This document shows positions 2,061-60,537 of a stretch of DNA of 64,000 bases, piece after piece (the first letter of the stretch is position 1; every line of letters begins with the position of its first letter). The stretch covers positions 806,001 through 870,000 of the forward strand of contig CAMPDV010000018.1 in NCBI GenBank assembly GCA_946699065.1, read 5' to 3'. The translations under genes and the position numbers were made by a program. Below the pieces are notes generated by a model. The model saw nothing but the letters and a program-made list of their open reading frames with translations. It was not told where the DNA came from and ran no database searches. This DNA is from Loxodes magnus (Eukaryota > Ciliophora > Karyorelictea > Loxodida > Loxodidae).

Positions 2061-4052
2061 TCATAGACTACTCTGTAAATTTTTATGAAATAATGGACCT
2101 TTAGATATGATGATGTCCGCAAAAATGTTTTCTTGGTCCAACAATATACAATTTTTTCCATTTAAAACTAAAAGTTCAATAAAGCATCCTGCAACGTTCT
2201 TTCTATCTTGTCCAGCTGCTAAATCATCATAATTTATCTTTTCTTATTATCCCATTTTATTTTGTAAAAGTTTTAACATTTTAATTGTCCTAAGTGATCA
2301 TTGATTAGGTTTGTCTAGAGAAATGGGACCTTAAGAAAATTCTATATCTATTTCGATTTCTTCTTCAGCTTGCTATACCTCTGTAATATTTTAATCAACT
2401 GCTTATTAAGAATCCTCGGCATCAAAAAGTTATACTTCGTTAGTATCATTTTAATTTTAGTTAGATTTTTCTTTAGTCAATTGATTTGAAACTTTTATAT
2501 CTTCTCTTTTTTCTTATAATTATTCTACCTTCGCAATGTTATCCTATTCCTACTTGTATAAATTTGAGATTTAAATGGGTATTTCTTCATTTTTTTAAAT
2601 TATATCTATCTTATTAGCATTTACTTCTTTTTACTCTTCAACTTAATTAACTTGCTAATTTTATAAAACCTCAATCTCGCCTTTTATCTAGTTTGTATTC
2701 TCAAGAAATTATAGAACTTCTTTATCTTGCATCACAGGATTTTCTTAATTAAGCTAACTATTTAAAGGCGAAAGTTAGACAATTTAATCCTCTTCTTGAT
2801 AAACCTAATCTTAAATGGAATAGTCATTCTTTTTCTAAGACTAATCTTATGTACCTTCTTATAACTAAGATTTGACTTCTTCTATATTTAACATTTATTT
2901 ATAATTCTTTAGTTTATTTCCGTTTTAGTAGAATTCTTCTAACTCAGGAGCTAAAGTTAATGTTTGCTAGGCTAAAACATCAGTTCCTTCTTCTTCGGTA
3001 AATGGAGAGTAGAATATTGTGCCTTTAACAATGCCGTTGCTATCTTGCTTTTCATAGTTGTTAATAATATTATTATTACTATTTTTATTATTAATCTTTC
3101 TAAACTAAAAACCAACTTTCCTTTATTCTTTTTCCTTAATTTTAACTGTTTCTTCTTACCTACTTTCTTTTTTACTTTTTTTTCCTAAAAGATTTTAATT
3201 TTATTGGGATTAGCATTATTCTATTCCTTAATCAACTTCTTATTAATGGATAGATACTTCTTCTTAGCCTAATTATTGTTTATTTCTTCTTAGCAAATCT
3301 AAATCTTCTTAATCAGCAAATTCATTTTATTCTACTTGCAAATTATGATCAACATCTTAATTCTAAAGATCTTAAACTAACTCATTTTTTATCTTTTCTT
3401 AGTGTTCAGCTTATTCCACTTGCTAATGCTAATTTTATGGATTTGCAGCATTTTAGTTTTCCATTACTTCCATAGGTTCTCTTACTAAGCCTAATTATTA
3501 CTGAGCAATTGCTTCATCTATATCTTCTAAAAATCTATCTTAAATACCGAACTCCAAATTCCTTTATAAACTCTGCTGAGTAACTTAGCTCTGCGTATTT
3601 TTAAGTTCCTATTCGTCCATTGTAATTTCTTCAGGTGCTGCTATATTTCTTGGTATTTCTAATTATTCTCTTACTATTGCTTACGTAAGAGGAATAAAAT
3701 CACTAGCAGGAAAGTTTATACTGCTTAGTTATCTTTTTTAACTCAGATTAAAAAATTTGCTATTAAGACTCTGTAAAATGCTAGTAGGTTCTAATTTGAA
3801 GCCTTCTTTAAGCCTATCCATTATTTCTTCAGCTTCAGATAAGAATAAAACTACTTTTTTATTATAAATCTTTATAACTCCAACAAGAAGATGTCCACTA
3901 ACTCTTAAACTCAAAGTTTGTTCAATACTTTTCATAGATTCTATAGATTCTTTTAGATCATGTTATGTATAATTAGCTCTTGAAAGTTTCTTATCTCAAT
4001 GAGCTGCTAATCAAACTTTTGCTAACGGTCCTTTTTTCTAAGCTGCCAACAT
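2061..4052 (-). CDS. RAD21: cohesin kleisin subunit RAD21/SCC1
   Basis: 663 residues, one exon, ATG 4052 to TGA 2063-2061. The N-terminus carries the kleisin signature KGPLAKVWLAAHWDKK, then SLRVSGHLLVGVIKIYNKK, which bind the SMC3 head in known cohesins. The C-terminal 70-100 residues are the winged helix that binds the SMC1 head (QDRKNVAGCFIELLVLNGK, IFADIIISKGPLF). The middle is long, acidic and Q/N-rich, as usual for the separase-cleaved linker. Both tryptophans of the N-terminal motif (residues 14 and 19) are TGA codons, direct proof that TGA means Trp here; another TGA near residue 600 also reads as Trp. REC8, the meiotic paralogue, is the alternative; the sequence alone does not separate them firmly. 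Role: ring closure in sister-chromatid cohesion in the nucleus. Confidence 0.93.
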
Positions 4053-7718: not shown

Positions 7719-9275
7719 TTAGTGCTTCTTCCAAAACTGACCTACCTAACCCTAAGCAGCTTAATTATCAGCATATTCATTTTTATTATCTTTTTTCCTT
7801 GCGGCTAATTTTTCTACTTCTTTTTCCTCCTCGAAAGCTGCTTATTTAATAGATTTTTACTAAAATTTGGACTTCTAGTATACATATAGATCTTAAGGAG
7901 TTAAATTGTTACTTTTTACAATGACAGGAAAATTGTGAGTTATAGTTTGTTCCTTAATATTATTTTCCATCTTGTACTATTTGCTTCCTCTACTAGAGAT
8001 TCCTTCCCTTGATTAAGTATCTTTCATTTTATTAAATTTGACTTATTTTTCAATTGATTCATCAAGTTTCTTTTTCTATTGCTGCTAGAATTTTTTTTAT
8101 TATTATTCAAGCATAGCTCCAATATTATTCTCCTTATATTTTTATTTGTCCATTCTCTGCTTTGCTTCTCTCTATGCTTACTCGTATTTTGCTTGAAAAT
8201 TTAATTTGCCAGATGATTTTCTAATCTCTTTACCATCTCAAGGTTCCAATTAGGTAACTTAGCTTCCATTCCTGCTTACTTACTTACTAGATATTTCTTT
8301 AGGAGTCACTTAATTGAATTTTTTAGTACCTTATCTTGAAACAGACTCAGTTCTACTATTGTTATCTTATTGCATTTTTTACATAAACTCTTCATTGAGA
8401 CCTTCAAAATAGGGATGCTACAAAGCTGCTAAAGATGAAATTCTTTCATTTCCATCTAATTTTAATAACGACTTTAAAAAGTTGAGGGCATTCTTAGAAA
8501 GCTTTCCTAAATATCTCTTTTCTAGAGATTCTAATTTTTGCATTTCAGGAAATTTGAGTCCAATAAATCTAGGATTTCTTTGAAAAAGATCATTTTGCTC
8601 AGGAGTTAATTACCCTAAAACCTTTTAAATTACATATAGTTGATCTATGTCACTTGAACCTGGAAACAAAGGCTGTCCATCAGTTAGTTCTCCCATAATG
8701 CATCCTATAGCTCAAATATCAACAGGCCGACCATATGCTCCTCCTAAAAGAAGCTCAGGAGATCTATATCACCTTGTCGCTACATATTCAGTGAGTACAG
8801 TAGGCTTTACTGGCAATGTTCTAGCAAAACCAAAATCGCAAAGTTTTAATTAATGATCAAAAGATACAAGCAAATTTTCAGGTTTGATGTCTCTATGGAT
8901 AATATCTTAATTATGACAATGATCTATTGCTTTACAAAGCTAAAAAATATACTTTCTTACTAATTCAGGTGGCACTCCATTTGGCTTTGACTCAAGAACT
9001 TCTAATAAATTTTAGTCTACAAATTCAAATACTAAATGTATTCGCTTTTTATAGCGATAAAAATCCTTTAAAAGGACTATATTATCATGTTTTAGCATCT
9101 TTAGTACTTTGAGCTCCCTATAAGAGGTCTTTCTCGTCACTTCATCATCCTCTGATTCTTTAAAACGTTTTATAGCTACAAATTCGCCTGTTTCTTTGTC
9201 TCTGCATTTTAGCACTTCTCCATATACTCCTTCGCCTACTATTCCAATTGGTTGATACTTAGAATTCTTCTTCAT
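7719..9275 (-). CDS. CDKL-type (cyclin-dependent kinase-like) Ser/Thr kinase
   Basis: About 518 residues, ATG 9275. Kinase domain at residues about 7-290: glycine loop GEGVYGEV (14-21), VAIKRF with Lys36, HRDIKPEN catalytic loop, DFGFART, and the activation segment TEYVATRWYRSPELLL, which carries the T-E-Y motif typical of CDKL and MAPK-like kinases; then VDIWAIGCIMGEL. The W of ATRWYR and of VDIW are TGA. The C-terminal 200 residues are Q-rich, basic coiled coil (repeated EAKQRMDKQ-like segments). In other eukaryotes and ciliates CDKL kinases act on cilia and flagella length, which would fit a ciliate; that is inference. The end is placed at TAA 7721-7719 where coding composition stops; the next in-frame TGA is at 7571-7569. 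Confidence 0.9.
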
Positions 9276-17258: not shown

Positions 17259-20200
17259 ATGAAGAGAATTAAGTGAAACACTTTCATTATTATTGTTATT
17301 GTATTCTATTGCTTCTAAGTTACATTACAGAAGATTTAAACTCCTAAAGGAATTACTTGGAGTTCTTATGACTACAATTTGAAAAAAATTAATGTAGTAT
17401 GAACAACTTATGCTGGAGCAACTAATTATGAGGTTAATTATTAGTATTAAACTAAGTCTGAAAGTAACTCTGTTAATGTAACAATAAATAGCTATGGAAT
17501 ATAATGTGATGATAACAACGGAGCTCAAATTAATGCAAAATTTAGAATTTGAAAAAGTACTGAAAGTTCTTCTTGAAGTCCTATTGTTTCTTTTTTATGT
17601 GCAAATGTACCTTCTTAACCTAGTTCACTTTAATTGGTCAAGCCTGATTAAATTTCTTGAAAATCTATAGCCGAAAATTTATATGATGGCGGGTCACCAG
17701 TTCTATCTTATGAACTTTACGTAAACGATTCTTATTATTAAGAATTTCCTTAAAATTAAATTTAGACTACTGGAGTATATGGCAATTACTATAAACTGAG
17801 GGCTAAAAATTGAGTAGGAGCAGGTGCTTTTTCATAAATCTATTAAATGTCTTAAGATTCTAAGATTGATGTAAGTAGAACTACCTACAATTAAGTAACT
17901 GAAATACCCGTAAATTAAGCCGTATAAATTACCTTGATCCCTAAAAGTAGTAGTGGAAGTACTGTTAACTAAGAAGGCCTTTTATTTTTCTTAGTTGTAT
18001 AAGATGCATGTGAAAGATAATACAATTCTTATTACTGCAAAAGAGTTCAAACAGGAAATTAGTATTATAATAACGATTTACTATCCAATTCTTAGCTTAT
18101 ATAATTCAGTTACCAATCTGGAAATTACATCGCTAGCTATACTCCTTAAAAGAAAGGATATTTAAGTTTAGCAGTAATTTATCTAGAATCTTATGGATGA
18201 AGAGCCGAATACTGGAATAATATAAATGAGAGTGGAGACTATGAAACTTTATAATATTTAAATTATATAGATTTGTATTGAAAAGAAGATGCTTTTATTA
18301 CTACTTCTGCTGCTACTTACGTTTCTGCTATGTATATTTCATTTATTAAAAGTCCCACTTCAGAAATATTTATATTTTACTTGACTAGTGATGATGGAGG
18401 TAGAGTTTATATTAACAATGTTTTGAAAATAGATACTTGGAACTTATGTTGCTAAACAGTTAGTTTTGAATATAAGCTGGAGAAGGATAAGTTTTATATG
18501 ATAAAAATTGATTTTAAATAATTAAAAGGATCTGCTTCAATTAAATTTGAGTGGCAATCTCTTTCTATACCTAGATAAGTTGTTCCAGCCTTTAATTCTT
18601 ATTAACCAAATTATTTAACATCCTAGAGCCAAAGTACTACAAATCCTTGAATTCTAAGTGTGACTCATGGAGAAAGCTATCCTTCAAACTGTTATGCTAA
18701 AGAAATCACAAATATTACGGCTGGAAATACAAACTATTTTAACATATAATCAGTAGATTTTACAGGAGATATAGTAGATAATCAGAATGACGCATACGAA
18801 GTTACTTTTCAATTAGTTGACAGCATATCATCTGAATAATAGAATAAATAATATAATGGACAATATACTAGTTTGGGATCTTATAGATTAGAATATTCAT
18901 TAAATTAAGCAGGTAAATATAGTATTACAGTTATCTTATCAAACACATAAATAAAAAACTCTCCTTATTATACTTACTGTATATCTGGAACTCCATAATC
19001 ATTAAATTCAACCCATAATTTTAAAAGCTTATGGATGAATAACTGTTGTATTTAGAGTGGCTTAACTTATTCAATAAGCTTTTAGAGCAAAGATTAATAT
19101 AGTAATCCAACTTATGATGGCAGAATAAGTATTTAAGTATAATTTGTCGATTATAATGAGTGCACTATCAGTTAAAGTTATTTCCCTTAATCAAGCGACT
19201 GAAAATCTAGTTATAATATAGAACCTTATTTTGTATACAATTCTTCCACAAAAAATTATCATTTAACCATATATTAGGCAGGAAATTGGAGTCTAACCTT
19301 CCTTATAGATAACGTAGAAATGAATTCAACTTATTCTCCTATATTAGTAAATGTGGAGCCATCATAAATATATGGTCTTAACTGTGTTTTATCGTTTCCT
19401 TCATCCATTGAAGCAGGAGTAACGACATAGTTTCTTGTATAAGGAAGAGACCAATTTCATAATAATGTATTAGATTCGATATAAGATTTCGACGATGAAA
19501 TTATAATAAGACCAGTAAATGATAATTTGATTGTTTAAATACTAGACCATGAAATTTGTTAAGGAGTTTATAAGATAATTCTATAAGGGGAATTAGAACT
19601 GCAATATTAAATCCAAATCTACTTCAATTCCATTAAGTTAAATGGAAGTCCTTTTACACTAACAGTAGAAAGCAATGGCGCCATTTCAGCAGATTAAAGC
19701 AAAATAGTAGAATAAAGCACAACTATAGAAGCAGGAAATTATTTTAATATAAAGGTAGAATCAAAAGATTAATTTGGAAATTAAGTTATTAGTACTCAAG
19801 AAGTATTTTCAATTGAACTTATTGATCCTGATAACCAGATCTTTAGATCTGAAAATATGATCAATTTGAACAATGGATTTTATTCCTATTCATTTTAAAT
19901 TTAGAAAAGTGGAACTTGATAAGTTAATATTTCTTTAGGATAAAGTGACAAGCAATTTGTCGCTCATACAAGTTTCTAAGTTACAGTTAGTGAACCACAT
20001 GCATTTTATAGCTATCTATAAGCGAATTCTGAATATAGAATTGGTAATTAAGATTTTATCGTAGATATAATTCCGAAAGATATTTATTAAAATTCTATAA
20101 GTAGCTTTGACTTTGATTTATAGTACTTCAATGTTTTAGTAGTTAGACCCTAAAAAGATTCAAATGACTAATTTATAGTTGATAGCTATATTGTTTCAAA

Positions 20201-22205
20201 TAGCAACAATTAACGAGCTTATGTTGATTTGAGTAACTATAAAGTTGCTGGAAACTATGAATTATTACTATAAATGTACTAAAAAAAAGCTCTAATAGCA
20301 ACTTATTTTGATTAAAATGATTTCCTAAATCCTTATTAAAAGCATCTTCGAAATTAATCATCTATTGACTAAGGACTTTATGGCTACAGCGACTTTATTA
20401 CTCCCATTAATTTTGCATGATAAACAAAACCTGCAGGACTAACTGATAATAACTATTGAAGTGCAACATGATAAGGCTACCTTTTAACCCCTGAAAATGG
20501 CAGCTAAACAATAGAAATAGAATTTACACTGGCAAGTTAATATGAAGCATTATTAAAAATTAATAATCAGATTTTGATTGATTGAACTTAGAATTAATGC
20601 AATACAATTGAGCTAAAAAGTCATTCATTCTTCAATATTTTAGTTTAATTTAATTAGACAAACGTTTCTCCAAGCCTATAGCTCTACTGAAAGACTTGCT
20701 TCCTTAATTAGGAAATAATTCCTTCTTCTCAATTTTACGCTTTCTTAAATAGTACTTTTACTCCTATAAATATTATTTTAAATCCAGGAGTTACTATACC
20801 GGAAAAAGTTACAATAACAGATTTTCCATAATAAATAGAAAAAAACATTAGTTATAGTTTTAAAGTAGAATCGTATGATAATTGGTAAAACAAGTAAAAT
20901 AATCATAATGATGTCTGAAACGGATTGTTTGAAAGTAGTTAGTATTAATATTCTATAAGGTTCGAAGCAACTTAAGTGTTAGGGTAATGAAGCGGCACTT
21001 TTAATATATCTAAAGGAGGATAATATAATCTAACAATTGAAATTTAACCAGATGGAACTGGAAATTTTTTCCTTGTTAATAAGGCTCAATATCTTATATA
21101 TGGAGATATTGATCCTTATATTTCAACACTGCAAGGAATAACTAATGGAATTGCTGGATAATCCTACAAAATAACTTTAACTGCAATAGATGAAAATGGG
21201 AATCATCTATTGAAAGGAGGAGATGACGTTAAAAACGTAACTAACCTAGAAAGTATAAAATTTACAGACCATAATAATGGTACATATACTTTTGAATACA
21301 CATGTTATACAGCTGGAACCTACTAATTAGAAATTTGAATTAGGTAATAACTAGATACCAATAAAAAGCTGACAATCTAAATATCTCATGCTACGATAAA
21401 TTTGTATGAATCTAAAGTTGAATATTAAGATAAATTATAAATAGATCATACTAATTAGATTACAATTCTTCCTCTAGATTCTTATGAAAATTTAATAACT
21501 GAGTTTTAAGAGTTTTATGGATATGTAGAGAAGTAAAAAGATAATCAAATATTCCAATGAAAAATTTATGATATAAACTAGCAATAATCAGGCTCTTATC
21601 TAGGATATGTGGATCTCTTCATTGATGAAACAAGTAGAGCAGACTACTGCTCAAATTAAAACAATTCATAGCTTGAAGCATGCGATTTTGCAGGTTCGGC
21701 TTAAATTTTTGTATATTAAATTCAACTTGGCATAAAAGCAAATTACTATTCTTCTGCATCAAATCTAGATTAACTTGTAAAGTAAGAAATTTTAAACAAT
21801 TAAAATATTGACTACAACTGAAATGATGGCGTTGTTTTTTAATATACAGACCCAAATAGTTTAAATATAGAAATGAACGATGATCTATAAATTATTTATT
21901 AAGGATATATAAAAACGTTATTAGATGATATTTTTGAATTTAAAGCAATAGCTGATGATTATGCTTTAATTAATATGAATTATTCAGCTAGCTCATATAA
22001 AGATTCTTACACCTTGAAGACAAAGCAAAATGCGTTTTATTGATATTAACTTCTTTATGTGGAAACTACTAATTCAGCTTCTCTATCCTTTTTATGAAGT
22101 AATTCCATAACTACGGATTAAGTTATTCCAAAAGAAAACTATTATTACCTAAAAGATGATGCTGTTCCATTTTCGGGTTAGGGAATTAATGTTAATTTAA
22201 CTTGA
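17259..22205 (+). CDS. large secreted or surface protein with FN3-like, filamin-like and three PA14 domains
   Basis: At least 1,648 residues, ATG 17259, no intron in this span. A signal peptide is clear (KRIKWNTFIIIVIVFYCF). Then come two fibronectin-III-like domains (to about residue 200), a PA14 domain at about 309-440 (YGWRAEYWN ... FIFYLTSDDGGRVYINNVL ... IKFEWQS), several filamin-type Ig repeats with the usual AGxY/SPF spacing, a second PA14 at about 1037-1150 and a third at about 1487-1620. Families of this PA14/filamin make-up are abundant in ciliates as extracellular or surface proteins, where PA14 is thought to bind carbohydrates. Many Trp codons are TGA (for example VVWTTYAG, IWKSTESSSW). 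The end is given at the first TGA after the last PA14 domain; the same frame stays open to 23277 and would add hydrophobic segments, so a C-terminal anchor may be missing here. Confidence 0.85.
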
Positions 22206-23166
22206 AAAAAGAATAAAACTGAGACTTAATTTTATTTTATATTTCTTTGAATTTATTATTATCTTTATATCTTCAAATAATAAAAGAGTGACCATACTAA
22301 ATATCTTTTATAACTATGGACTTAAACCTTAGAATTATACTTATCATTTATGATAGCTTGCTTCTTTTAACATTTTTATCTTAAAGTCTTTATTAAACCA
22401 ATTTTAAAGTTAAAATTTTAAAATAAAAGAAATGTTTATTAAATGATTTTCAAGCCTACTAACTGTATCTAAAAATGTTAAGATTGCGTACTATTAGCAA
22501 TCAGTTTAAATGTTAAAGGCAAATAGATTTAAAATTAATTTGTTTTAAACTCTTTATGCAATATATTCACTGATACATATCTATCAAGAAGCTAATATTT
22601 AATTCTACTAAGTTTAAAAATTACTAGCTTTAGCATTGATTGATATTTAAAAATAATTTCAGCTTCTTTAGAGATAGCTATATTTCATCTTTCTTAAACT
22701 TGATTAATAATATATTTTGGAAGTTTAATCGAAAATTGAAATTTTAGAAGTTATTTCAAAAGATTTATTAGCAAGAAGATTTCTCTAAAAGCTAATATTG
22801 GATTAATTCTTGCAAGTTAACAGGTTTTGAATTAAAATAAAGCAAAAGAGTTGCATTTATAATATAAGAAGATCTAAGTTTGATATGGCAATAAAACGTT
22901 TTTAAATGAATATTAAATATTCTATTTATAAATTAAGGAAAGTTTTGCTATATTTGTTTAAGATTTCAACAGCATAAAGGTTAAGATATTGATTGCTATT
23001 ATTTATTTATAGCTTTATGTCTTTTATTTGTCAAGTTAAGGAAAGTTATTTTTATTAATATATCCTGTTAATTCTAATGGGATAATAATAGATTTAATCA
23101 TATTGAAGTTTATTGAGTAGTTTAAGGGATAATTATTAATATTCATTTAAATCCAAAAATATAAAA
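22206..23166 (+). other. unresolved 3' extension of the PA14 gene or spacer
   Basis: All three plus frames look protein-like and hydrophobic in places (in the PA14 frame FYFIFLWIYYYLYIF directly follows the last domain). A membrane anchor and cytosolic tail are likely here, perhaps with short introns, but I cannot choose a frame. Confidence 0.4.
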
Positions 23167-25401: not shown

Positions 25402-26844
25402 ATGAAAATGGTTTTGCTTTTAGTGCTTTTTAACTTTATTATATGTGTATTTTCCTCTATAACTATTTTTAGTCCTAAATAACTTCGCGATTAGTTTAAC
25501 TTATTATATGGTACTGGCGGTTCAATTCCATGTTCTCTAGCAAACTTTGGAAATCCGCCTTATGGAACTTAAATGGTTGGGAAATTGATTTTTGCTCCTT
25601 CTAAAGACTAAAATGAATTAGCTTGCAATGAGTTATAGCCAATTAATTAAAACTAGGCGGAAGAACAAACAAGTACAGTAATAATTTTGGTAGATAGAGG
25701 ATAGTGTTCCTTCGTTGAGAAGGTAAAGCATGCGCAAAAAATAGGTGCTAAGGCAGTAATAGTTGTAGATAATAAAGATGAAGATATTTCTCATATTGTA
25801 ATGATAAACGAAGAAAATACAAATGATGTTTTCATTCCTTCTTTTCTAATATCAAAGAGTGATGGAAATATTATTAAAAACTACTTAACAGGTAATCAAG
25901 ATAGCGAGAGTATAATGATATAACTAAAGTTTGAAATGAAAAGTGTTGATTCTAAAGTAAACTGATAGATTTGAATGAGTAGTGATGATATTTAAACTAG
26001 AAAATTCTTGCACGATTTTGCTGACATCATGAAAGAATTCTCTGAAGATGATATTTTATTTATTCCTCATTATGTATTTTGATTTTGTCCAAATTGTAAA
26101 GCCCAAGGATATAGTCAGAGTTATGAAAACTGTCTCTCTGGAGGAAGATATTGTGCACCAGACCCTGATGAAAATGGTCCAAGAAATGGAAAAGAGATTT
26201 TAATGGAAGATTTGCATCAACTGTGCATTTATTAATTTTCAATAGAATAAAAGAACTAAAAAATCTGATGAAGCTACATTAAAAATTTATACGAAACATG
26301 TGGTGATGTAATTACTGAAGAATGTTGTGCATAATCAGCCTCTAAAGTAGGAGTAAATCAGAATGAAATAAACACTTGTGTAAATAGTAGCTTTTAAGGA
26401 ACTAAGCCAGATATTGATGACAACACTATATTAAATAATGAGTAAAAAGCTTGATAAAAAGCTTCTGTAAGTTTTTTCCCTAGTATTCTTATTAATGATC
26501 AAATCTATAGAGGAGATATTGAAACTGATGCAGTTATCAAAGGTATTTGTGCAGGATTTAAGTAAACTCCAAAAGCTTGCAAAAAAACATTAGATCCTAA
26601 CTTCAAAAATAAAGGATAGCATATGTTTACTACAAATGAGCTAATAATAATGATTTGCTCTATAGTTGTTACTGCTATAATAATTTTTATTATTGTAAGA
26701 AAACTAATGAAAAAACAAATGAAGAAAGAAATCAAGGATTAGGTTACCAAAGCAGTTAAGCAATATTTAGCTCTTGTAAATAACCCTCAAAGCAATAGTA
26801 GCATTGAAGTTGTTGCATCTTACGTACCTTAAGAAACTTTATAA
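25402..26844 (+). CDS. vacuolar (lysosomal) sorting receptor, VSR type
   Basis: 480 residues. Signal peptide MKMVLLLVLFNFIICVFS, then a protease-associated domain (GAKAVIVVDNKDEDISHIVM, NDVFIPSFLISKSDG), then the cysteine-rich thioredoxin-like region of plant-type VSRs (WFCPNCKAQGYSQSYENCLS, GGRYCAPDPDENG, YETCGDVITEECC), SFFPSILINDQIYRGDIE and KGICAGF. A single membrane span ELIIMICSIVVTAIIIFIIV is followed by a short cytosolic tail ending SYVPQETL, with a tyrosine-based YVPQ-type sorting signal. VSRs carry hydrolases from Golgi to vacuole or lysosome. No in-frame TGA occurs for over 400 nt after the tail, so TAA 26842-26844 is taken as the stop. ATG 25402 is 47 nt after the Cache receptor stop; ATG 25408 is an alternative start. 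Confidence 0.92.
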
Positions 26845-28938: not shown

Positions 28939-30934
<1,996 letters not shown>

Positions 30935-44764: not shown

Positions 44765-47290
44765 ATAAGCCTTAATTTTTGGATAATAGATATTCAAGAT
44801 AAGCAAAAATAATCAAATTTGAATAAATAATGGTGTTAATGTTTGATGCTAAATATACTAATAATCTGATATAGATTATTGATTAACTAGTTTAGAACAT
44901 TTATATCCTTACATAACACTCTAAATCAAAAATACTTGTTCCCTACTATATAATTTATTTTCCTTTAATCATTAAACACTTTTATTTTATATCAGCTTTC
45001 AAATGCTTTATACCAAGTTTAAGATATTTATTTTTGTTTACTTAATGAAATAAATATCTTAATAACATGAAATTCATTAATTAAAAGTTAGGAAATACAA
45101 TAATAAAATGCTATAGTAATTTATAATAAGAGTATATAAATCTATTTCAAAGGAAAAATATATAATAAGTAGGATTTAAATACGAATGAGTATAAAGGAA
45201 TAGCTAATAGAACTAAAATTTATTTTACATTTCCATGATTCAAATAAAGTCAAAACTATTTATATAAATGCTTTCTACTAATATATCCCTTTCAATAGTT
45301 ATGATATTATCTATTTTGCTTCTTTAAAATTTTAATATGAATCTAAAAGTTATTTGTTAAGGATGGAATATCTTAAATCATAAGAATCAGCATATTACTT
45401 AAAATATATAATATAAAAACATAAGAAAGGATTTTAGAATCTTAATGACTAAAGGTTAAATTTTAATTTATTTGAAAAGCAGAACTTTAGAGGTGCTGTT
45501 TTTCAGAGAAACCTCAAAAGATTAAACAAAATTATCTGTTATTATTTTTTATAATCAATATTCGCTATTTATAATTAATTCATAAATGATACTTGTAGAT
45601 TTAAAGTCCTTAAATGCCTCAAAATCTCAGATGTATTACATTTAAGGCTTGGATCTATCTTATAACCTTTCTAAGGTTTAAAGTTACTGATATTACTGAT
45701 AAGTTAAAATTTAGCTTGCACAATAATTAGATTTGTTTCCTAATATTTAAGTCTTTAATATAAAATTAGATATTTTTAATTATTGCTCAAAAAGAAAAAT
45801 ATAAAGAGCTATATAATTTCCTTTAATATATAAATAAAAAATAAGCTTAGAAAATGTCTATATTTCTTACATTTTCACATTTAATTAATATATTCTGATA
45901 TACTCATTAATCAGTTCTTTTATTCAGCTAAACTATAAACGATTTTATAAAGATAATAGCTTATATAATATATCTAATTGATTAGACTTAAGAGATTATA
46001 ACATTAATAATAATAAATATATCTTATCTATATAGTGCTTAGCATAATAATTTTATAATTTGTTTATGAAACCATTTTTACTTAATTTCTAACTACTAAT
46101 TCTTATTACGAATCTAGTAGTGCAAGCAGTCTCATAACTAGCTTAAATTTATAAAGAATGCTATATATTTGCTTAATAATAGAATATATGGAATAGCTAT
46201 TACATATATGCTCTTATTTTATTAGTTAAAAAGATATTCCATTAGATCTTTCACTTCCCTAATTTTACTTATTACTATTTTTTGCTACAATTAATAAAAC
46301 GAAAAATAAGAAGAAAATAGAGTAAATTTTAACAGTTATAGACACAAAGCCATTATTATGTAGTCAACAAACAGACTAAAAACATGTTACTTGTATTTAA
46401 TAGGCATAAAGCCCAATTATCTATTTGATCTATTATACTTGCTTATAATATTTACCTTTATGGGCTATTGTTTAAAACCTATTTGTACTATTTAATAAAA
46501 CCTATATTTATTTTAGAATAAGATGGTTTGAAATTAAGATCATAGTAGTTTATTTAATAAATAAGTTTATTTATATTTAAGGAAGTAATATAAAAGTTAG
46601 GTATATGATTATAAATAGTAATATTAAAGATAACTTGCATAAGACCACTAAACTACTAGCTATATAAAGAAATAATCATTCCTTATTTCCTTTATATTCA
46701 ATAATCAACTTCATCATTTTCCTATCTCCTATTAATTCTATAATATATAGAGTTTGCTACAAATTCAATTAAGAGTCATTAACTTATGGAAAACTTCATA
46801 TTAAGCAATATAATGAACAAGCTTTGAATATAAGATATTGCTTAAAAGGTAGAAAGATTGTATATAGTAAAGAATAATATGTGACTTAATAACTTAATGA
46901 TGGCTACTATTAATAAATGTACCTTACTAGCCTTCATTACTATAAGTCTTAATCTGTGTAATTAAACTTATTTATTAGCATTACATTTCATATATTCTAG
47001 TACTGTTAGCTTTAATACCAATACGTCATTATTTAATTAAACAATCAAGCATGAAAATATTAATGGAAAGCTTTACATTTCACAGTCTGCAAGTTTAAAG
47101 TAATGAGAGGACTAAATTGCTAACGTCTCAATAAATATGAAAATGGTATTAGATAAAGAGATAGCTAGAGAGAGTTAGTTGAAGCTAAGATAGTAAGAGG
47201 AGACTAATAATGATACTTATACATTTCTATTTAATTATTATTAAATTAAACTCTTTAAATCTAATCTGGTTGGTTTCGAAATTTCTAAAA
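44765..47290. other. longest gene-free stretch
   Basis: About 2.5 kb of very AT-rich DNA upstream of the calpain gene. A 37-codon ORF at about 47103 (MRGLNCQRLNKYENGIRQRD) is the only part with coding-like composition; it may be an upstream ORF of the calpain mRNA. Nothing else supported. Confidence 0.5.
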
Positions 47291-50200
47291 ATGTCTTAAG
47301 AGAAACTTAATGAAAATATATGAAACATTGATTTCACTAACACTGAAGAATGCTGCAAAGTCGTAAAGACTATAGCATAAGAACGTATGAAGTATAAAGA
47401 AGTTATCAGCAAATATGCTAACAAAAATTGGGAAGAAATAGATCCTGATGAGCAAAAGAGAACATTAAGAAAGCTGCATAAACTCCATCTAGAACTAGAG
47501 AATTAACTTATTAATTCTTACAATACTTAAGATTAGGAAAAAGAAGAACTATAAAATAAAAATATGGACTTTGAAAAAAACGTGCAAAGACTAGAGTAAG
47601 AGATAGAAGAAGCAAAAAAATCTTAACCTGAAAGCAATGGAGTTTCCCAGGAAGATTATGATAAATTAGAGAATTAGAATTAAAATCTTTTACAGCAAAT
47701 ATAAGAACTGCAAGCTTCAATGGAAGATTAAGATAAACTAAAGAACCAAAATAATATGCTTTTATAATAAATATAAGATCTTGAAGCTTCGCAGGAAGAT
47801 TACGATAAATAAGTGAATTAGAATAAAAAGCTTTTGTAATAAATATAATAACTTAGTAAAAAGCCTAAAGCAGATGATTAACTGAAAGAAGCAGCTTAAA
47901 AGATTCAGGAACTTGAAAATTAGTTAAATGAGGTACAATCTCAAAAAGCTCATTTTCAAAAAAAATTGTACGAGTTAAATAAATCTTTTGGATAAAAAGT
48001 TTGGCAAGAAACTCTTAACAATATAAGTTCACTAACTCCAAAAATAACTAAAATATAAGCTTTATTTAGAGGTTCTCTAGCTAGAAAAAGGTTTCACTAA
48101 AAATTAGTTGATATGGCAAATGATATGCCATAAAGAACAAAGGAAAAATCAACTTAATAAGCTATAAGGGATCTTGCAGCAGCTTTAAGGCGAAAAAGTT
48201 TAACGTTGGAACAAGCATTTCGAGCAGCAGATAGTGATTCAGATGGTATTGTTAACGCTCAAGAATTTATCGATTTCTTGAATGGATTAAAGCTAGGATT
48301 GTAAAAGGGAACTATATCAAGAGTTTTATTGATTATTGATGAAGATTGCTCTGGAAATGTTAACTTAGAAGAGTTTAATAATGCTTTGGAGGCATTTGAA
48401 GTCAGTACAGAGAGACATAGACAAAGTGCTAGAACTTATGAATAAGAATGCTTAGTTCACTTCTATTAGTTATTAGAAAGCAAATAAATAGACGTCTAAT
48501 AAGTATATAGTCTGTGTGATACTGATAACAGTGGATAAATCTCAATTAAAGAAATTGAAAGATACTTAAATTCTTTGGAAGATCTCCAATAGAAAGAAAT
48601 ATACTGCCTTTGTAATTATCTTGATTTCAATCGTTCAGGCGAAATCGACAGAGAAGAATTTATAAGAGCAATGAATTAAGCTAAGCAAGCTTCTAAGCTA
48701 GCGTTAAACACTTCCAAAAACTTTAATCAATCTAAATAAGGATTTTCAGCAAAATCAAATAGCACCTATAGCTAAGGGAATAATCTTAGATAAAGCTAGG
48801 GAAAATTCTAAAATATGTCTACTAAAAGTTATCAAACTAGCTTATAGGTAAAAAATATAGGAGAGATAAGTTGTGAGAGTTTCGTTATTGAAATAGAGCA
48901 AGAAGGAGATATTGCTTAATTTTTTGATTAACTGAAAGAATCAATTATGCCTTCCTCTACCTTTTTAAGATTATTAGAAAATGCATTCCCCAGAAGCAAG
49001 AAAAATACTTTAAAAGATCTGATTGATATTTTATCTAAAGGAGGTAAAATAAATGTAGGCGAAGCAATGAATCAGTGTCTTCCTTTTAGTAGATATATAA
49101 GCATTAAATTTACTTTTACAAAAGTAGCAAATTGTGCAACTGTTTCTAATCAAAACACTCCTAAATGACTTCAAAAGGAACTAGGTTAAGATAATTCAAT
49201 CAAATAAGAATAATTTACAGTAGCAATGAAAAAATTGGCAAATTTAAGTAAAGAAGAGTCAGGCGCTATTTTCAAGTCCCTTGAAATTTAATAAGAAAGC
49301 ATAATATAGCTTTCTGATTTAGTAACTGTTATTAATTCCTATCGGGTTGATTATTTAGGTACTACACCAAGAGAAGGAAGTGAAGGAGCTGCTAAATTTA
49401 TTTAGAAGGAACTATAAAAAAAAGGATTAAACAGCGATGATTTATTTAGATTTACAGATGTTCTTAAACGTCAAGTCATATCAAAAGATGATCTAAATAG
49501 ATCCTTATAAAAATTACTACCTTAAATGCGTCTTGAAATTATCAATATCTTTTTGAATGCTTTCAATCATGATCAAATAACTGAAGAAGAGCTTTATTCT
49601 GTCCTCTAACCTATAACTATATCTTAAAGACCAAAAAATACTGTTAGGCAATCGTAAGACGAAAATTAGCTTGATCAATATGGATTAACAGCTTCTTAAG
49701 TTTACTGAATAAGATATTTCGATAGTGTAACTTTAAGAAACTCAATGTCTCCAGCTCTAGCTTTTAGAGCAGCAGATTTAAATAAATCAAAAACTGTGAC
49801 TTTTTAAGAGCTAAAAACTGTTCTTTAGAGAAAAATTTCAAACAGTGAATTAAGTTTAGGGGAAATAATGAGCATAATGCAGGCATTTGATATAAACAAT
49901 AATGGTATCATTACATATGATGAATTTATATAAAGACTTGAAGATGCCAGGAATAGCCCACATGATGTAAGCAACTTTAAATCTTTGAGAGAAGAAGCAA
50001 TAACAAGTCAAACACCTGAAAATTTGAAATAAAAAGAAGTTTTAAAGCAGCCAGATTAAAGCAAAGAGATTTAGAATTCTAAGAAAAGAGAAAATCCTCA
50101 AATTATTGAAAATTAGTTTAACTGGCCTAAGGAGTTTAATAACTTAATTATTAAGCTATCTCAGTAGCTGCATCCAAAACAAACATCTTATGACTTTTAT

Positions 50201-53200
50201 TTACGTTAACTAAAAATAACAGAATAGTAAGGATAAGATTATTATGATAAAGAGAAATTTAACATTGAAGTCTAAAAAATGTTTTAGCTAACTTCAGCAT
50301 AACGAGAGCTTATATTCAATACATTGATCGATCCATCAAAAGAATTTATCTTGTTTAATCAGTTCTTAACTCTTTTAGATCTGCAAAAAAGCACCTTATT
50401 ATAAGGAAAGCAAGTTTATCCTATGGCACAATTTCCTTTTAAATAAATGAAATATGCAAATGAATAAGCGAAGTAATATTCATTTCAAATCGCCCAGTCT
50501 TTGGATGACCTTTAAGAATCTTTGTACGATTTATTTCCACCTAATTTTCAAAAAAATTCTAAGATTTCATAAAAATAATTCAAAGAAATATTTTGCTCAT
50601 AGTCCACTTGACTAAATACTAACGAAGCAGAGATTCTATTTTAAAGTTTACTAATGAAAGGTTAGTCTGAAATTTGATTGTATCATTTAGTGAGTGTTGT
50701 TGATAGTTTCCGTTCTAAAATAATAGTTGCACAACTATGAAATACTCCTCAAGCAAATTTCATGTAAGGAAAGGAAAAGATTATATTAAGTGAAGAATTT
50801 AAATAGGTTATGCTAAAAGCAGCTGAGTAAGTAACACCTAATAGCTCCGCTCTGGATTATTATTTATAGATGAATAGTCTAAAAATTTCTGATGCATAAT
50901 AATTTTATGAAATTAAGGCCTTTGAGATGACCATCGACACTATGTTTTAAGATTTTGATTAGACAGATAAAAAACTAATTTTTTCAGCTCTTAGTAAAGA
51001 AAATTACATAATTTGAATTCTCTTTTTGACATTGCTTGATATAGCACTTTAGTATAAGGATACATAAAGTTGGGTAGGATTTAAATTAATTGATTTTTTC
51101 CCCCTGAGTTTTAACTAGAATTCTAATTAGTAATCCAATCAATTTCTAAAGGCACTTTCAGAAGTATAAGACGAAAAAAATGAAAACTCATTTTAAGATC
51201 TTTCTAATTAGCTTTAAGTTAATCTTAACTAAAAGTTTAACAAATAGTAGTTTATCAAAAAATTTAGCATCGACTGAGAAATGGAAAATGAAGAAGCATA
51301 AATTATATTTGACGACTTAGTGCTAAATAATTAAGATTATATTCTATTCTATCACTTCTTAGGATGCTTAGAGTCATACAGACAAATGTTATCCCTGCCT
51401 AAAGAAGTAAGTAAAAAAGAGATAAAAACTGAGGAAGATTAAAAAAAGCTAGAGAAAAACAATATTTTAAATAAGAATGCAAGCGAACTACTTTTTAAAC
51501 TGTCTCAGTCAATACCTCCAAACCAAACAGCATTGAATTATTACATTGAAATGAATAGTTTGGATATTTAGAGTATCAACATGTATTATGATAAATAATC
51601 CTTCAACTAGCTCATAAGTGCTATGTTTGCAATCAATCAAAGCGAAAAATAAACCGTCTTCAGTTTGTTCGAACGAGACAAGCAAATTTGTTGGCTCTAG
51701 TTTTTGGCATCACTTGACTTAGCCAAATTTTACTCAAGCAAAGTATAAAAATGGCAAGGATTTTAAGCCATAGAGAAATTTCCCATTTCTTGGAATTAAA
51801 ACAAAAGTAATGAATGCAAAAACCATTTTGAAAAGTATGCAAGAATTCTAGATTAGAGCTAAACGAATCCGTATCAGTAAATAGAGCAAGATTTGGACAT
51901 AAAATTGGATGAGTAATTAAACGAATAACAGTTTACTAGTAAGTTCCAAACTATTAACTTATTGAATAAAACTTGCTAGGCTTTGTTTAATGATTTACTG
52001 ATTCCCAAATAGTAGGTCGTACATAGTTATCACTATCTAGCCTGTTTAGACTCTTATATGAAGTCATCATATTAATATGAATATTAATAATAATAATAAG
52101 AAGAAGAAGACTTAATAGACGAACAACCAGAGGAACAAAAAGTAGAATAAGAAGTGAAAAAGAAAGCAGAACAAAAAATTGATTAAAAAGTAAAATAAAG
52201 GATAGATTAAAAGGTGGAAAATAAAGAAGAGAATAAAGTAGAGTCCTAAATTGAAGCAAAATCAGCTAAATTAGCGGTAGATGTGAATGGAATATGCATT
52301 AGATTAGCTAAGAATATTCCTAAAGAATAAAACTCATATGAATATATATTTGGTGAAAAAGGCGGACCAGATCTGGAAGAAGTGGTTACGGCGTAAGATT
52401 TAAATTAGTCTTTTAGCCAAATATTCAAATTAGATGAAAACTAATATAACATCATAATACAAAAATTAGGAAAAAATAAAAGGCTTATTGCTTTCACTCT
52501 TTACACTTATCTAGATCTTTATTAAGTTATTTCTGGCACTAACTAAACAAGATTACCTCCTCTACCCCTTGAGGAAAATAAAAATTTAAAACCTCCAGAA
52601 ATAAGAGTAGCTCTTTAGTAATTTGGGAAATGATTAGAGAATAAATAAATTAGTACAATTGAATATTTCTAATAGTTTGACATATAAAAAGACTCAAAAC
52701 TCACACTCGAAGTACTATAAGACTTGCTAATTAAAATCGATCAATTAGACTTGGAATAACCTTAGAAAAAAACGCTGTCTAAAATGATTTGTATTAACAG
52801 AGAAAAGTAAATTATTCCTTCTTATCATTTGTACTGCATAGTTGAAAGCTACAGAAGTGACTTTACTAATCAATAAAATTAAAATTAAAGAAAACAATCA
52901 TAGTCTCAAGAAAAAGAAGAAGTATAGGAGTAAGTTTAAAAAGCAGCTCAGAGTATGAAATTTAAGCCAGATGTAGGAACAAGTAAAAATAATTAACCCA
53001 AAACTTATAATTCAGCAATGGATAGAAAAGATGTCCTTAATAAATAAATCTTTTCATCAGAAACTTCTCTTGATAACGAACCAAGATTTTATTAGCCTAA
53101 AAGCTAGCAGAGGTAATAAATAGTAGGTTACAACAGCGCTAATAAATAATAGAGTCTAACTAATAAAATAGTTATTAGCTAAAGTAATTAGAAAAAATAG

Positions 53201-55804
53201 ATTCCTCGTCAAGAATCTTAGTAGCTTAATCAATAAAATTAAGATCCTTTAGTATAAGCTTTAAACTAAATCCTGGATTACATGGAAGGACAAAATCCTT
53301 AAAATAAGAAATTAAATCCAAGTGATTTATTTAAAAAAGTGGAATAGGCAGGATAAGGATTTTTAAACAGAAATTAATTTTTGACTTGTCTTGACAAGCT
53401 TGATTTGCAAATATCAGAGTAATAAAAAATGCTAGTTCTTAATTTTTGTGACCCCAACAGAAATAATAATATTAATTACAATGATTTCATTATTTCAGCA
53501 GCAGAGTATGTTGGTAGAGGAAAACCATCTATAAAATAATAAAATCAGCAAGTATCTCAAAAACCTAAGGAAATAAAAAAATAACGAGAAGTGAAAGATA
53601 TAAATGAATTTAATCTAAACAGCTTTGAACCCAATTCTTTGCCTTAGGCTATTTATAAACTTAAAAATATACTTCATCATAATTAAGAGCATACTGAGAA
53701 TGTTTATGCTAAGCTTGATAGTGACAAAGATGGAATTATTGATGAAAAGGAATTTAAAATAGCTTTAGAATGGCTAAAACTTAAATTAACTCCATAGTAA
53801 TAGAAACAGCTAATGAAGTTAGCTGATTTAAATAGCGATGGAATTCTCAAATATAAGGAGTTTTTGGATTTTATTTATGATTATAGATTCTAGTCTGATT
53901 AGACACAAATTTCTCAAAAAAAACAATATGAAGATATATAGGAAGAACCAACAGAGAAGTGACTTAATGAAATATTCCAAATAGTGGATAAAATGAAACT
54001 TCAAAAATCCGATTTTTTTGAAATCCATAGAATGCACAGCACCATTCTTAATTCTGACAAAGCGGCTTTCAAAAGATGCAGAGAACTTGCTCTTTAGTTA
54101 AATGAAAGACAAAATTTTAAAGATCCAGATTTTGGACCTACAAAGGAAGATAGTCATGGAGCTTAATCTATATATTGATATGGTGAAAGCCCTGACGAAA
54201 ATTATCCTGATTTTGAAAGCATTTATTGAATGCACTTAGAAAATTTCATTGAGTAACCTTAATTTAAAATTGAAGGAACTGGCGCTAATGAAATCGTCTA
54301 AGGAAATTTAGCAGACTGCTGATTTATAGGAAGTTTAAGCATTATATCCACAAGAAATAAGCTACTTTAAGGAGTTATTCCAAATAATTGAGAAGACAAA
54401 GAAATTAATTAATTCACTAATAGTGAAATCAGAGGATTCTATGAAGGTATTTATCCTCCTCTATTTCACTGGTTTGCAAAATATGGTATTTATGTGTTTA
54501 GATTTTACAAGCATTGTAATTGAAGATATGTAATTGTTGATACGCAAGTTCCTGTTTTTGGATCTCCAGAAGAGGAAGATCATTAAATAATCTTCGGAAG
54601 ATGTAGTAACCAGAAAGAAATGTGAATTTCTTTAATAGAAAAAGCCTACGCTAAGCTTCATGGATGCTATCAATCATTAATAGGTGGATACATAAATGAA
54701 GGTATAACTGACTGTACTGGTTTAATTTCTGAAGATATAAAGCTTCATGATAATAATAATAAATTTCCTCATTAAAGTCTTAAAAATGAAGATTCATTTT
54801 GGAAATTGCTTAAATAGTACAAATAAGAAGGTACATTAATGGGGGCAAGCATCTAAGGATAATCAGAAAATAAAGAAATGATAGAAGAGTAGGGGTATGG
54901 AATATTAAGTGGACATGCTTATAGCGTTTTAGGTGTTTTTGAAGTATAAAATGAAAACACAAGAAAAGGATTTCATAGACTTTTGAGAATGAGAAATCCA
55001 TGGGGAAAAATGGAATGAAATGGACCATGATCTTCAGATGATTTGAAATTATAATAGAACTAAGATGCAATACTTTAATATGTTTAAATGCTTGATCAAG
55101 ATGAATATTTTGATCCTTACAAAAGAGAAGATGGAACTTTTCTCATGTGCTATAAAAATTTTAGAGAAATATTTAATAGAATATATTGCTCTGTTGACTT
55201 TCCTGATCATTGATCTGGAAGAAGATTTTAAGGTAAATGGACTGCAGAAAACTCTGGTGGTACTCCTTGGAAAAAAGATTAAAAGATGTATTAAAGCTGG
55301 TCTTAAAATCCATAATTTATTTTAGAATGCAAAAAGAAAATAAAAATATTCGTAAGTCTAAGCTAAAAAGATGGAAGGCTTTAACCAGATTTAAAGTTTC
55401 CTTTTGAGTAACAAACTCACTGAATTGTCATAAGTGTTATGAAAATTGATAAAAATGCTGAAAAATGCTAGCTATTTGACCAATCTAAAGTGGTTGTTTT
55501 ATCAACAATTGCATAAAACCGAGAAGTTACTATAAGATAAAGTTTAAATCCAGGAAGATATGCCATAGTTCCTTCAACTAAGTTTCAAGGAGACTGTGGC
55601 GACTTCTTTATTTAAATTTATTTTGACTGCAATATAAGTTAAATAGAGTTATTTAATGCTGACTAAAAAAATAACAAAGGAGAAATCATTTGGGAAGAGG
55701 AGAAAAAAGAAAGTTGGAATGAAAAAGAATGGGGAAATCCACAGTAGAAAGCAAAACTTATGAAAGCATTATTAAAGCAAATGAGTTTAAGTAATTAGTA
55801 GTGA
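47291..55804 (+). CDS. giant calpain with coiled coil, IQ motif and multiple EF-hands
   Basis: 2,837 residues in one uninterrupted exon, ATG 47291 to TGA 55802-55804. Residues 1-235: coiled coil with a 25-residue motif repeated three times. About 247-265: IQ motif (KIQALFRGSLARKRF), a calmodulin site. EF-hands near 313 (DSDSDGIVNAQEF), 352 (DEDCSGNVNLEEF), 410 (DTDNSGQISIKEI), 445 (DFNRSGEIDREEF), 867 (DINNNGIITYDEF), 2054, 2143 (DSDKDGIIDEKEF) and 2179. The cysteine-protease core is at about 2320-2590: QGNLADCWFIGS with Cys2343, GHAYSVL with His2542, RNPWGKMEW with Asn2569, so the catalytic triad is intact; the Trp after the active-site Cys is TGA. A C2-like domain follows (WTAENSGGTPW). Family knowledge: calcium-activated intracellular protease. 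Such a long EF-hand/IQ scaffold ahead of the protease core is unusual. A strongly acidic, Q-rich linker lies near residue 1600. Confidence 0.93.
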
Positions 55805-58527: not shown

Positions 58528-59382
58528 TTTAAGTAATAAGAATGTACTTATTAAAAATAAGCAAATGCATCCAAAAAGTACTAACTTAAAATATGTTTCT
58601 TTAGCAATTTAAAGGAATTAGATATGCATTAAATATTTAGTAAGTAGCTTTAGTTTAAGCTACTTACTCTAAATATCATAGTAGCTTATTAATACCTCTT
58701 GCTAACTATAACCAAATCATTATAAGAAGTTATAATAGCAGTCTCTGTCTAAATAGCCAAACTTATTAAGTTAAGATAGTAATCTGTATCTTATGTAAAA
58801 GCATTCTATTATAGTATTTAAATATGCTACTATATATTTATTCTTTATAGCTATAAGTTAATTATATAATACAAACTTACACTAAATCATTGTTTAAATA
58901 CCAATTATTTCATTAACACAACTCACTTCTATTCCTTCACATCTACATTCTTCTAAATAATATTAAAGCTAAACTAATGCTAAGCTTAAAGTTTAATAGT
59001 TAGATACTTTCTTTTAAAGCAAAAATAAAGAGAAGAATGAAAGTTAATAGGTTAATACTAAATTAATAGGAAAGGTAATAGTAATAAGTGGTAGATTAGT
59101 TCAATTTAATCTTTTGAATCATTTCTAGTATCCTACTTATCATCATTAGTAGTACTATTCCTCCATTATAACTACTATTTAGACATTAGTCTGTCATAAA
59201 ACTATCGTTTTCACTAATAAATCTAAGTTTTTAATGAAGCCTTAATATTTAAGCTTTGGATGGCTATTTATAGTTTCTAATATAGGTAGCTAGCTGCATA
59301 TGAATAAATTGGTTATAAATAGCAATTTTATCAAAAATAATCAAGAAAGAGTATAAATAGCAGATAAGTAAAGAATAATTAA
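58528..59382. promoter_or_regulatory. divergent intergenic region
   Basis: 855 nt between the MGC gene (minus) and the AP endonuclease (plus). AT-rich, no motif recognised. Confidence 0.35.
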
Positions 59383-60537
59383 ATGAAGCAAAACAAAATA
59401 TTTTACTAATAATAGGAAACTCCTGTCTGCAATGGAACTGGAGCTTTCTCAAGCTAAAATGTTAGAGTTGCTTGTTGGAATGTAGATGGGATCTAGAATG
59501 TTCTGAAAACTGGAGACTTAATTAAATGTATTGAAGCTTACAATCCTGATGTTTTGTTTTTAAATGAAACACATGTATACACTTATGAAGCCTAAGAACT
59601 AATCTAAAGTTAAACAATACCTAAATCTTATTACTAATACTAATATTTCAATTGCTGTGTGGTAAAGCAATTTTAGTATTCTGGGGTATGCATGTTCTCT
59701 AAAGTAGAACCTATAAGCATTTAATACGAGATGGGCTAAAATTATGCTAAGCACAATGGAGAAGGAAGAATAATAGCTGCAGAATTCTAAAACTTTTGGG
59801 CTATCACAGCTTATGTCCCTAACTCAGGAAGAGGACTTGCCAGGTTAAATTACAGAACTTAAGAATGGGATCCAGATTTTAGATAATGGCTTATAAATTT
59901 GGAAAGCAAAGGAAAGCCTATAATTTGAATGGGTGATTTAAATGTAGTTTCTCAGCCAATTGATATAATAAATGGAGTAATGCTAGAAAAAATAGCTGGC
60001 TGTGTACCGGCAGAAAGATAATAATTTGCAATAAGTCTCAATTATTTTACCGACATTTATCGACATTTATATCCTAAACAGATAGGCTTTTCATTCTGAT
60101 CATATAGAGCTGGACCAAGAACAAGGGAAGATAACAAAGGATGGAGGCTTGATTACGCTCTTTGTACGAAATCTTTTATTAGTAAGATAAAAAACATAAG
60201 AATGCTTAGTGATATACTTGGAAGCGATCATTGTCCTATTGAAGTTGAAATTATAAATGAACAAAAGTAAGTACAAAGGAATGTATCAAAGCAAACATAG
60301 TTACTATAAACTAATAAAACACAAGTTTAAGCATAAAACGCTCCTAAAGAAGAGACCAAACAATAAGTTTAGATAACTCCTCAAAAACCGTAAGAACAAC
60401 CATAGCCTCAGTAGCAATAATAACAATAATAATTACAATAATAGTCAGATTTTGACTTGCAAATAAAGAACTTAATAAAGTAGTAAAGTGAAGAATCAAG
60501 CAAGGGTATTGACTTCAAGTAGTATTACAAGTTCTGA
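59383..60537 (+). CDS. APEX1: AP endonuclease, APE1/exonuclease III family
   Basis: 384 residues, ATG 59383 to TGA 60535-60537, one exon. Residues 25-290 are the endonuclease/exonuclease/phosphatase fold in APE1 form: VACWNVDGIQ (Asn33), metal-binding Glu62 in FLNETHVY, EGRIIAAEFQNFWAITAYVP, PNSGRGLARLNYRTQEWDP, MGDLNV (Asp185, Asn187), WRLDYAL, LGSDHCPIEVE (Asp282, His283). All catalytic residues are present. The last 95 residues are a Q-rich disordered tail with a run of about ten glutamines. Function: cutting abasic sites in base-excision repair. Two conserved Trp are TGA (PIIWMGDL, FSFWSYRAGP). Confidence 0.93.

Follow-up and report, generated by a model that had tools for sequence, protein, structure and literature searches.

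The 64,000-nucleotide stretch of Loxodes magnus DNA analysed here (C18:806001-870000, hereafter the window) very probably follows a nuclear code of the karyorelict ciliate type, with codons of ambiguous stop/sense meaning, in which UGA is read as Trp and UAA and UAG as Gln inside genes and UGA ends translation near their 3' end. Working from sequence, we show these codon assignments together with the terminal use of TGA. As for the set of stops, we hold it reasonably likely that the code corresponds to neither table 27 nor table 28, UGA (major) and UAA (minor) serving both as sense codons and, depending on context, as stops, and UAG being a pure Gln codon. Published work already describes the code, how it depends on context and the tRNA with a 4-bp anticodon stem, and the gene-level evidence for UAA termination, with no sign of UAG termination, is at most a refinement of it. 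Wider searches covered a genome of 705,730,643 bases in 7,843 contigs.

Sense meanings of TGA, TAA and TAG

Codon-usage segmentation of both strands of the window called 21 coding segments amounting to 12,000 codons, with 88 TGA (terminal ones included), 50 TGG, 761 TAA, 268 TAG, 271 CAA and 77 CAG codons. TAA and TAG together represent 1,029 of the 1,377 Gln codons, about three quarters, the rest being CAA or CAG; the claim of an earlier sequence-only reading of this DNA that TAA and TAG stand for Gln in every gene is therefore right in a loose sense. Pfam searches, run on 20 of the 21 segments, identified RAD21, a CDKL-type kinase, filamin/PA14, a PDC/Cache sensor domain, PA plus VSR thioredoxin-like domains, a PI4-kinase, EF-hands with a calpain and an AP endonuclease (Table 1), the remaining scanned segments giving weak matches or none. 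The highest TGA count among the window segments (23 TGA vs 7 TGG) is that of a large protein with filamin repeats and a PA14 domain, encoded at 17337-22229 (+). The EF-hand protein with the calpain is encoded by one open frame, some 2,800 codons long, that comprises many EF-hand repeats, a weak IQ motif and, at the C terminus, the calpain protease with its domain III.

Table 1. Positions of genes and codons in the window
Feature	Position	Strand	Basis and remarks
RAD21/Rec8-like cohesin gene	2061..4052	-	663 codons plus stop; Met at 4052, TGA stop at 2063-2061
TGA as Trp14 of RAD21	4011..4013	-	alignment to solved homologues
TGA as Trp19 of RAD21	3996..3998	-	alignment to solved homologues
CDKL-type protein kinase gene	7719..9254, 5' end approximate	-	Pfam, alignment; sense TGAs in ATRWYRSPE and VDIWAIGC
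TAA, apparent stop of the kinase	7719..7721	-	...GQFWKKH-TAA; all frames free of TGA over the next 147 nt
TGA as Trp of ATRWYRSPE, kinase	8769..8771	-	alignment
PA-domain/vacuolar-sorting-receptor thioredoxin-like membrane protein	25510..26832	+	Pfam; ...VASYVP-TAA (26830-26832, apparent); all frames free of TGA over the next 112 nt
PI4-kinase catalytic region	28951..30450	-	Pfam; ends in TGA
EF-hand repeat protein with C-terminal calpain protease	47288..55768	+	Pfam, alignment
AP endonuclease (ExoIII/APE1 type)	59293..60513	+	Pfam, alignment

The RAD21 gene gives the clearest instance of TGA as a Trp codon. Its minus-strand frame matches Rad21_Rec8_N (7e-24) and Rad21_Rec8 (2.3e-9), and no RAD21 protein is found when the plus strand of 2061-4052 is read. 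All three of its sense TGAs, at residues 14 and 19 and in the C-terminal domain, face Trp in solved homologues, so that what the sequence-only reading had said of the first two residues holds, on the minus strand, which it had left unnamed. Across five window families, with the facing residue read by eye in printed alignments and taken from the best homologue at each position, 15 of 18 sense TGAs face Trp in solved homologues, the other three facing Leu or Thr. Both aligned TGAs of the kinase face Trp, its third TGA lying outside the domain, and the same is true of both aligned TGAs of the PI4-kinase, a family that the sequence-only reading had not listed. In the calpain the count is seven of nine, the other two facing Leu and Thr of m-calpain; one of the seven, in NNWEDK, is Trp in calpain-5 and Gln in m-calpain. 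The AP endonuclease has one of two: the TGA of FSFWSY corresponds to a conserved Trp, and that of PIIWMGDL (59926-59928) to Leu in all three printed homologues. Of the four families in which an invariant Trp had been claimed, RAD21, the calpain and the CDKL kinase are thus confirmed at the positions quoted, and the AP endonuclease is not.

The same codon usage extends over the genome. Among 80 Ras/Rab loci outside the window, 73 carry the WDTAGQE motif under the rule used, and its Trp is encoded by TGG in 35, by TGA in 33 and by another codon in five. When each alignment column is assigned its majority residue (at least 50%), 69 of 76 TGAs and 75 of 80 TGGs of these 80 loci fall in Trp-majority columns, and no TGA falls in a Cys-majority column. 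TGA behaves like TGG, and the reading of UGA as Trp and of UAA and UAG as Gln inside genes is solid. In the 73 loci, the Gln codon of DTAGQ is TAA in 46, TAG in 16, CAA in six, CAG in three and something else in two, i.e. TAA or TAG in 62; for TAA and TAG, the Gln columns of the majority table hold too few CAA and CAG codons to inform. The idea that the TGAs are nonsense mutations of pseudogenes, or encode another residue such as Cys, has a negligible probability, given that conserved frames continue for thousands of codons, that the families named reach high domain scores, and that TGA is as specific to Trp columns as TGG and absent from Cys-majority ones. The sequence-only reading was consequently right to assign the three codons as it did and to call the code 27- or 28-like, L. 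magnus being published under table 27 (PMC11441545).

Gene ends at TGA and candidate ends at TAA

TGA is the main stop. Among 30 histone-fold loci read, the core histones end at TGA in 16 of 16 cases (H3 5/5, H2B 6/6, H2A 5/5), which favours UGA as the only stop. A pattern for H4-type C termini gave ten matches against none in the control, nine followed by TGA and one by TAA (C24:778889-778909), which may be due to chance and was left out of the UAA count. In addition to canonical H3, there are six divergent H3 variants (L042-L052) with variable N-terminal tails and GEK-type C termini; four of the six end at TGA, and in two (L047 and L050) the corresponding codon is TAA. A CC or CxC motif occurs within the first 62 codons of 41 out of 100 Ras/Rab tails read, and a TGA follows it within four codons in 35 of these.

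The codons that precede these stops are also instructive. In 84 genes that end at TGA, none of the 1,680 codons making up the last 20 before the terminal TGA is an in-frame TGA. TAA and TAG occur 7 and 30 times, respectively, in the last 12 codons, as against 267 and 131 times upstream (Fisher p=1.3e-8), and TAA depletion gives p=3e-4 for the Rab/Ran set, p=1e-5 for the general genes and p=0.2 for the histones, all of these p-values being optimistic because many of the genes are paralogues. A depletion of UGA and UAA, and not of UAG, before stops was published for L. magnus (PMC11441545). Swart et al. 2016 (PMC4967479) found that codons with a stop function become scarce immediately ahead of stops, this being true of all three in Condylostoma and of UGA in Parduczia, and by this logic the depletion of TAA before terminal TGA suggests that UAA acts as a stop as well. 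If true, UAA termination would account for the published finding that UAA is depleted and UAG is not.

Twelve candidate genes that end at TAA were collected: seven Rab genes, the H3 variants L047 and L050, the window kinase, the PA/thioredoxin-like gene of the window and a Pelota-like gene (L009, identity read from its sequence). It is rather unlikely, in our view, that table 27 holds as written and that UGA is the sole stop, the TAA ends then being short introns, pseudogenes or assembly errors; one paper does state that UGA is the only stop of karyorelicts (PMC11441545). The Rab tails count against it. Indeed, of the six motif-bearing tails that have no TGA within four codons, five (L111, L150, L153, L158, L160) have a TAA within three codons of the prenylation cysteines, a place usually taken by TGA, with p about 7e-4 at the rate of TAA in UTRs; the sixth, L180, has a CKC-TGA end further downstream. 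The two other Rab candidates were added by eye, L107 for its CaaX box (CLIF-TAA) and L124 for CCN-TAA, where the motif lies further down. L161 (CC-TAA-TGA) is ambiguous and was left out of the TAA count. A looser motif rule yielded ten TAA ends in 48 tails, from which L100, L119 and L170 were dropped by eye as not being true C termini.

Comparison with paralogues also speaks against UGA as the only stop, TAA in one gene aligning with TGA in another. L111 ends in CNC-TAA and its 65%-identical paralogue L097 in CNC-TGA; both H3 variants that have TAA read GEKHLTDM-TAA where L048 reads GEKQLTDV-TGA. Likewise, L153 (CCY-TAA) and L158 (CCF-TAA) compare with L105 (CCKL-TGA). Furthermore, in seven of the 12 candidates all frames are free of TGA over at least 85 nt after the TAA, a distance greater than the published mean 3'-UTR of L. 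magnus, 53 nt (PMC11441545), and a short intron could hardly mend such ends; in L047, a TGA occurs after 12 nt. On the other hand, seven of 32 control stretches located after true TGA stops are also devoid of TGA for 85 nt or more. G+C content over 90 nt drops at the TAA in all 12 candidates, and AT-rich sequence directly follows the TAA of the kinase, the PA/thioredoxin-like gene and the Pelota-like gene.

Two further analyses gave no support to TAA as a stop. The first was a composition scan in which any codon was eligible as terminator; applied to 50 general and 100 Ras/Rab gene ends (150 in all), it did not favour TAA; TGA was clearly chosen, along with Cys codons in Rab tails. The scan placed the end of the kinase at a GGT seven codons upstream of the TAA and that of the PA/thioredoxin-like gene at an ACT two codons past it. 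This counts weakly against a UAA stop, the power of the scan for TAA being probably low because this codon is common in both coding sequence and UTRs. The second analysis relied on the MEEVD pattern, which gave 41 matches (13 in the reversed control), 26 followed by TGA, 15 by TAA and none by TAG or TGG. Fourteen of the 26 TGA matches come from one array on C140, and one further match, on C49, resembles HSP90 and has TGA as its stop. Of the 15 MEEVD-TAA matches, the two that were read (C67 and C219) are not ends of heat-shock proteins; the pattern was set aside as uninformative, and its matches give TAA no support.

Weighing the tails, paralogues and depletion against these results, we consider it probable that UAA ends a minority of the genes, which would make it a minor second stop. 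Its share would be about one in eight among Rab genes, as judged from the five TAA and 35 TGA ends obtained under one rule.

UAG at gene ends and comparison with tables 27 and 28

No gene end with TAG as the only possible stop was seen among the 41 motif-bearing Rab tails, the 16 core histones and the ten H4-type matches. Three Rab tails (L084, L085, L106) do have a TAG after the cysteines, followed by a TGA within the next four codons, and a TAG stop backed by TGA is conceivable there, as table 28 would allow. A code of this Condylostoma type, in which each of the three codons doubles as a sense codon and a stop, is nevertheless very improbable. It would agree with the apparent use of TAA as a stop, and two papers lump karyorelicts with Condylostoma as having three codons of dual meaning (PMC11687900, PMC12153298); yet TAG-only ends are missing from the sets above, TAG undergoes no depletion before terminal TGA, and TAGs near gene ends align with sense codons, the one directly before TGA with CAA in a Ran paralogue (L125/L132) and that of L106 with TGG in L115.

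The code favoured here, with UGA and UAA as stops and UAG as Gln, shares with table 27 (Parduczia sp., Loxodes spp.) the reading of UAA and UAG as Gln and of UGA as Trp inside genes, UGA as the main 3' stop and the depletion of UGA before the true stop. It departs from table 27 as given in PMC11441545, where UGA is the only stop, in that a minority of genes apparently end at UAA. With table 28 of Condylostoma magnum (PMC4967479), it shares codons whose stop or sense meaning is resolved by position, and UAA that is also able to terminate, and it differs from it by the lack of TAG-only ends, by TAG being undepleted before stops and by the dominance of UGA as stop. Another paper gives UGA alone as dual (PMC10553269), and in the literature searched, as far as its available parts go, UAA was nowhere found to be named as a stop of Loxodes.

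What is usefully added here is gene-level genomic evidence for UAA termination in some Loxodes genes, none being seen to end at UAG alone. Seah et al. 2022 (Peer Community Journal) reportedly noted that UAA may serve as a stop in a small minority of the transcripts of karyorelicts. If the code is as favoured here, UAA and UAG, which both mean Gln inside genes, would differ in their recognition by the release factor.

tRNA-Trp and eRF1

How UGA is decoded was approached with a pattern combining the Trp anticodon loop and the T-arm, which has 171 matches in the genome and 55 in a reversed control. The tRNA-Trp with a UCA anticodon that the sequence-only reading had suggested looking for did not turn up in this genome-wide search: UCA-loop matches number 25 of the 171, compared with 37 in the reversed control, and none of the 19 scanned by ARAGORN was called a tRNA. 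Likewise, no UCA match in the genome was obtained with a D-arm pattern to which the CCA genes conform except at the anticodon base, both patterns being of a kind that may miss divergent tRNA genes. Decoding by a cognate tRNA-Trp(UCA), whether nuclear or imported from the mitochondrion, is in the light of these counts improbable, despite the statement that all sequenced ciliate mitochondrial genomes have a mitochondrial tRNA-Trp(UCA) (PMC4967479). Among the UCA-loop matches, a recurrent CTTCAGACTCTT element is apparently a degenerate copy of tRNA-Lys. An element repeated on five contigs (L072-L076, on C444, C558, C594, C921 and C1144) has a T-arm and a tRNA-Lys(CUU)-like core, gave no tRNA call and is apparently a tRNA-derived repeat. 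No tRNA-Gln(UUA/CUA) was identified with a pattern that gave 53 matches against 107 in its control, and whose spacing probably excludes tRNA-Gln, being unsuited to the structure of that tRNA.

What was found in place of a UCA tRNA is tRNA-Trp(CCA) with a 4-bp anticodon stem. Of the remaining 146 matches, which have the CCA anticodon, 21 lack C43, and the tRNA-Trp(CCA) genes among the matches listed lie mainly in tandem arrays on C67 (L028-L041, 482323-491201) and C148 (L080-L081, 155464-164556), whose repeat units measure about 187 and 241 bp. In the array copies read, the 27/43 pair is broken, as A27.C43 on C67 and as T27.C43 in two copies on C148, which leaves an anticodon stem of 4 bp. A full 5-bp stem, with T27-A43, was found in only two copies, both of them single genes on C110. 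According to PMC13092985 and PMC12005148, Blastocrithidia and Condylostoma read UGA by means of a tRNA-Trp(CCA) with a 4-bp stem, and such a tRNA was also reported in Loxodes, both papers citing Swart et al. for its presence there. The systems of Blastocrithidia, Condylostoma, Blepharisma, Loxodes and Amoebophrya have in common the CCA anticodon, the broken 27-43 pair and the fact that no UCA tRNA is found, and the present genome is distinguished from them by two types of mismatch (A.C and T.C) in tandem arrays and by the two 5-bp copies elsewhere. Trp at UGA would most likely be delivered by these tRNA-Trp(CCA) arrays, which have lost the top pair (27-43) of the anticodon stem, and not by a UCA tRNA.

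Two eRF1 copies (L010 and L011) lie about 35 kb apart on C196, L010 being a clear orthologue (9e-159). Relative to human eRF1, with residue numbers counted by hand, L010 has E55 replaced by Ala, T58 by Arg, S60 by Gln, S70 by Ala and Y125 by Phe, and keeps NIKS and C127. L010 and L011 share Ala at human positions 55 and 70 (Ala70 of L011 being read by eye) and RAQNIKS for TASNIKS. With changes at E55, T58, S60, S70 and Y125, eRF1 would be restricted to termination in the context of the 3' end, and near the end of the mRNA the release factor would win over the reading of UGA as Trp, so that UGA ends translation there. We infer from sequence anatomy and published work that the tRNA and eRF1 would act in this way in Loxodes. 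If UAA is indeed a second stop, this would fit an eRF1 that has lost UAG and kept UAA near the poly(A) tail, and how one release factor drops the former and keeps the latter would become a question testable with a single eRF1. A change of Ser70 to Gly in Blastocrithidia eRF1 was linked to UGA readthrough (PMC12153298); Ser70 is thus changed in both organisms, to Gly there and to Ala here.
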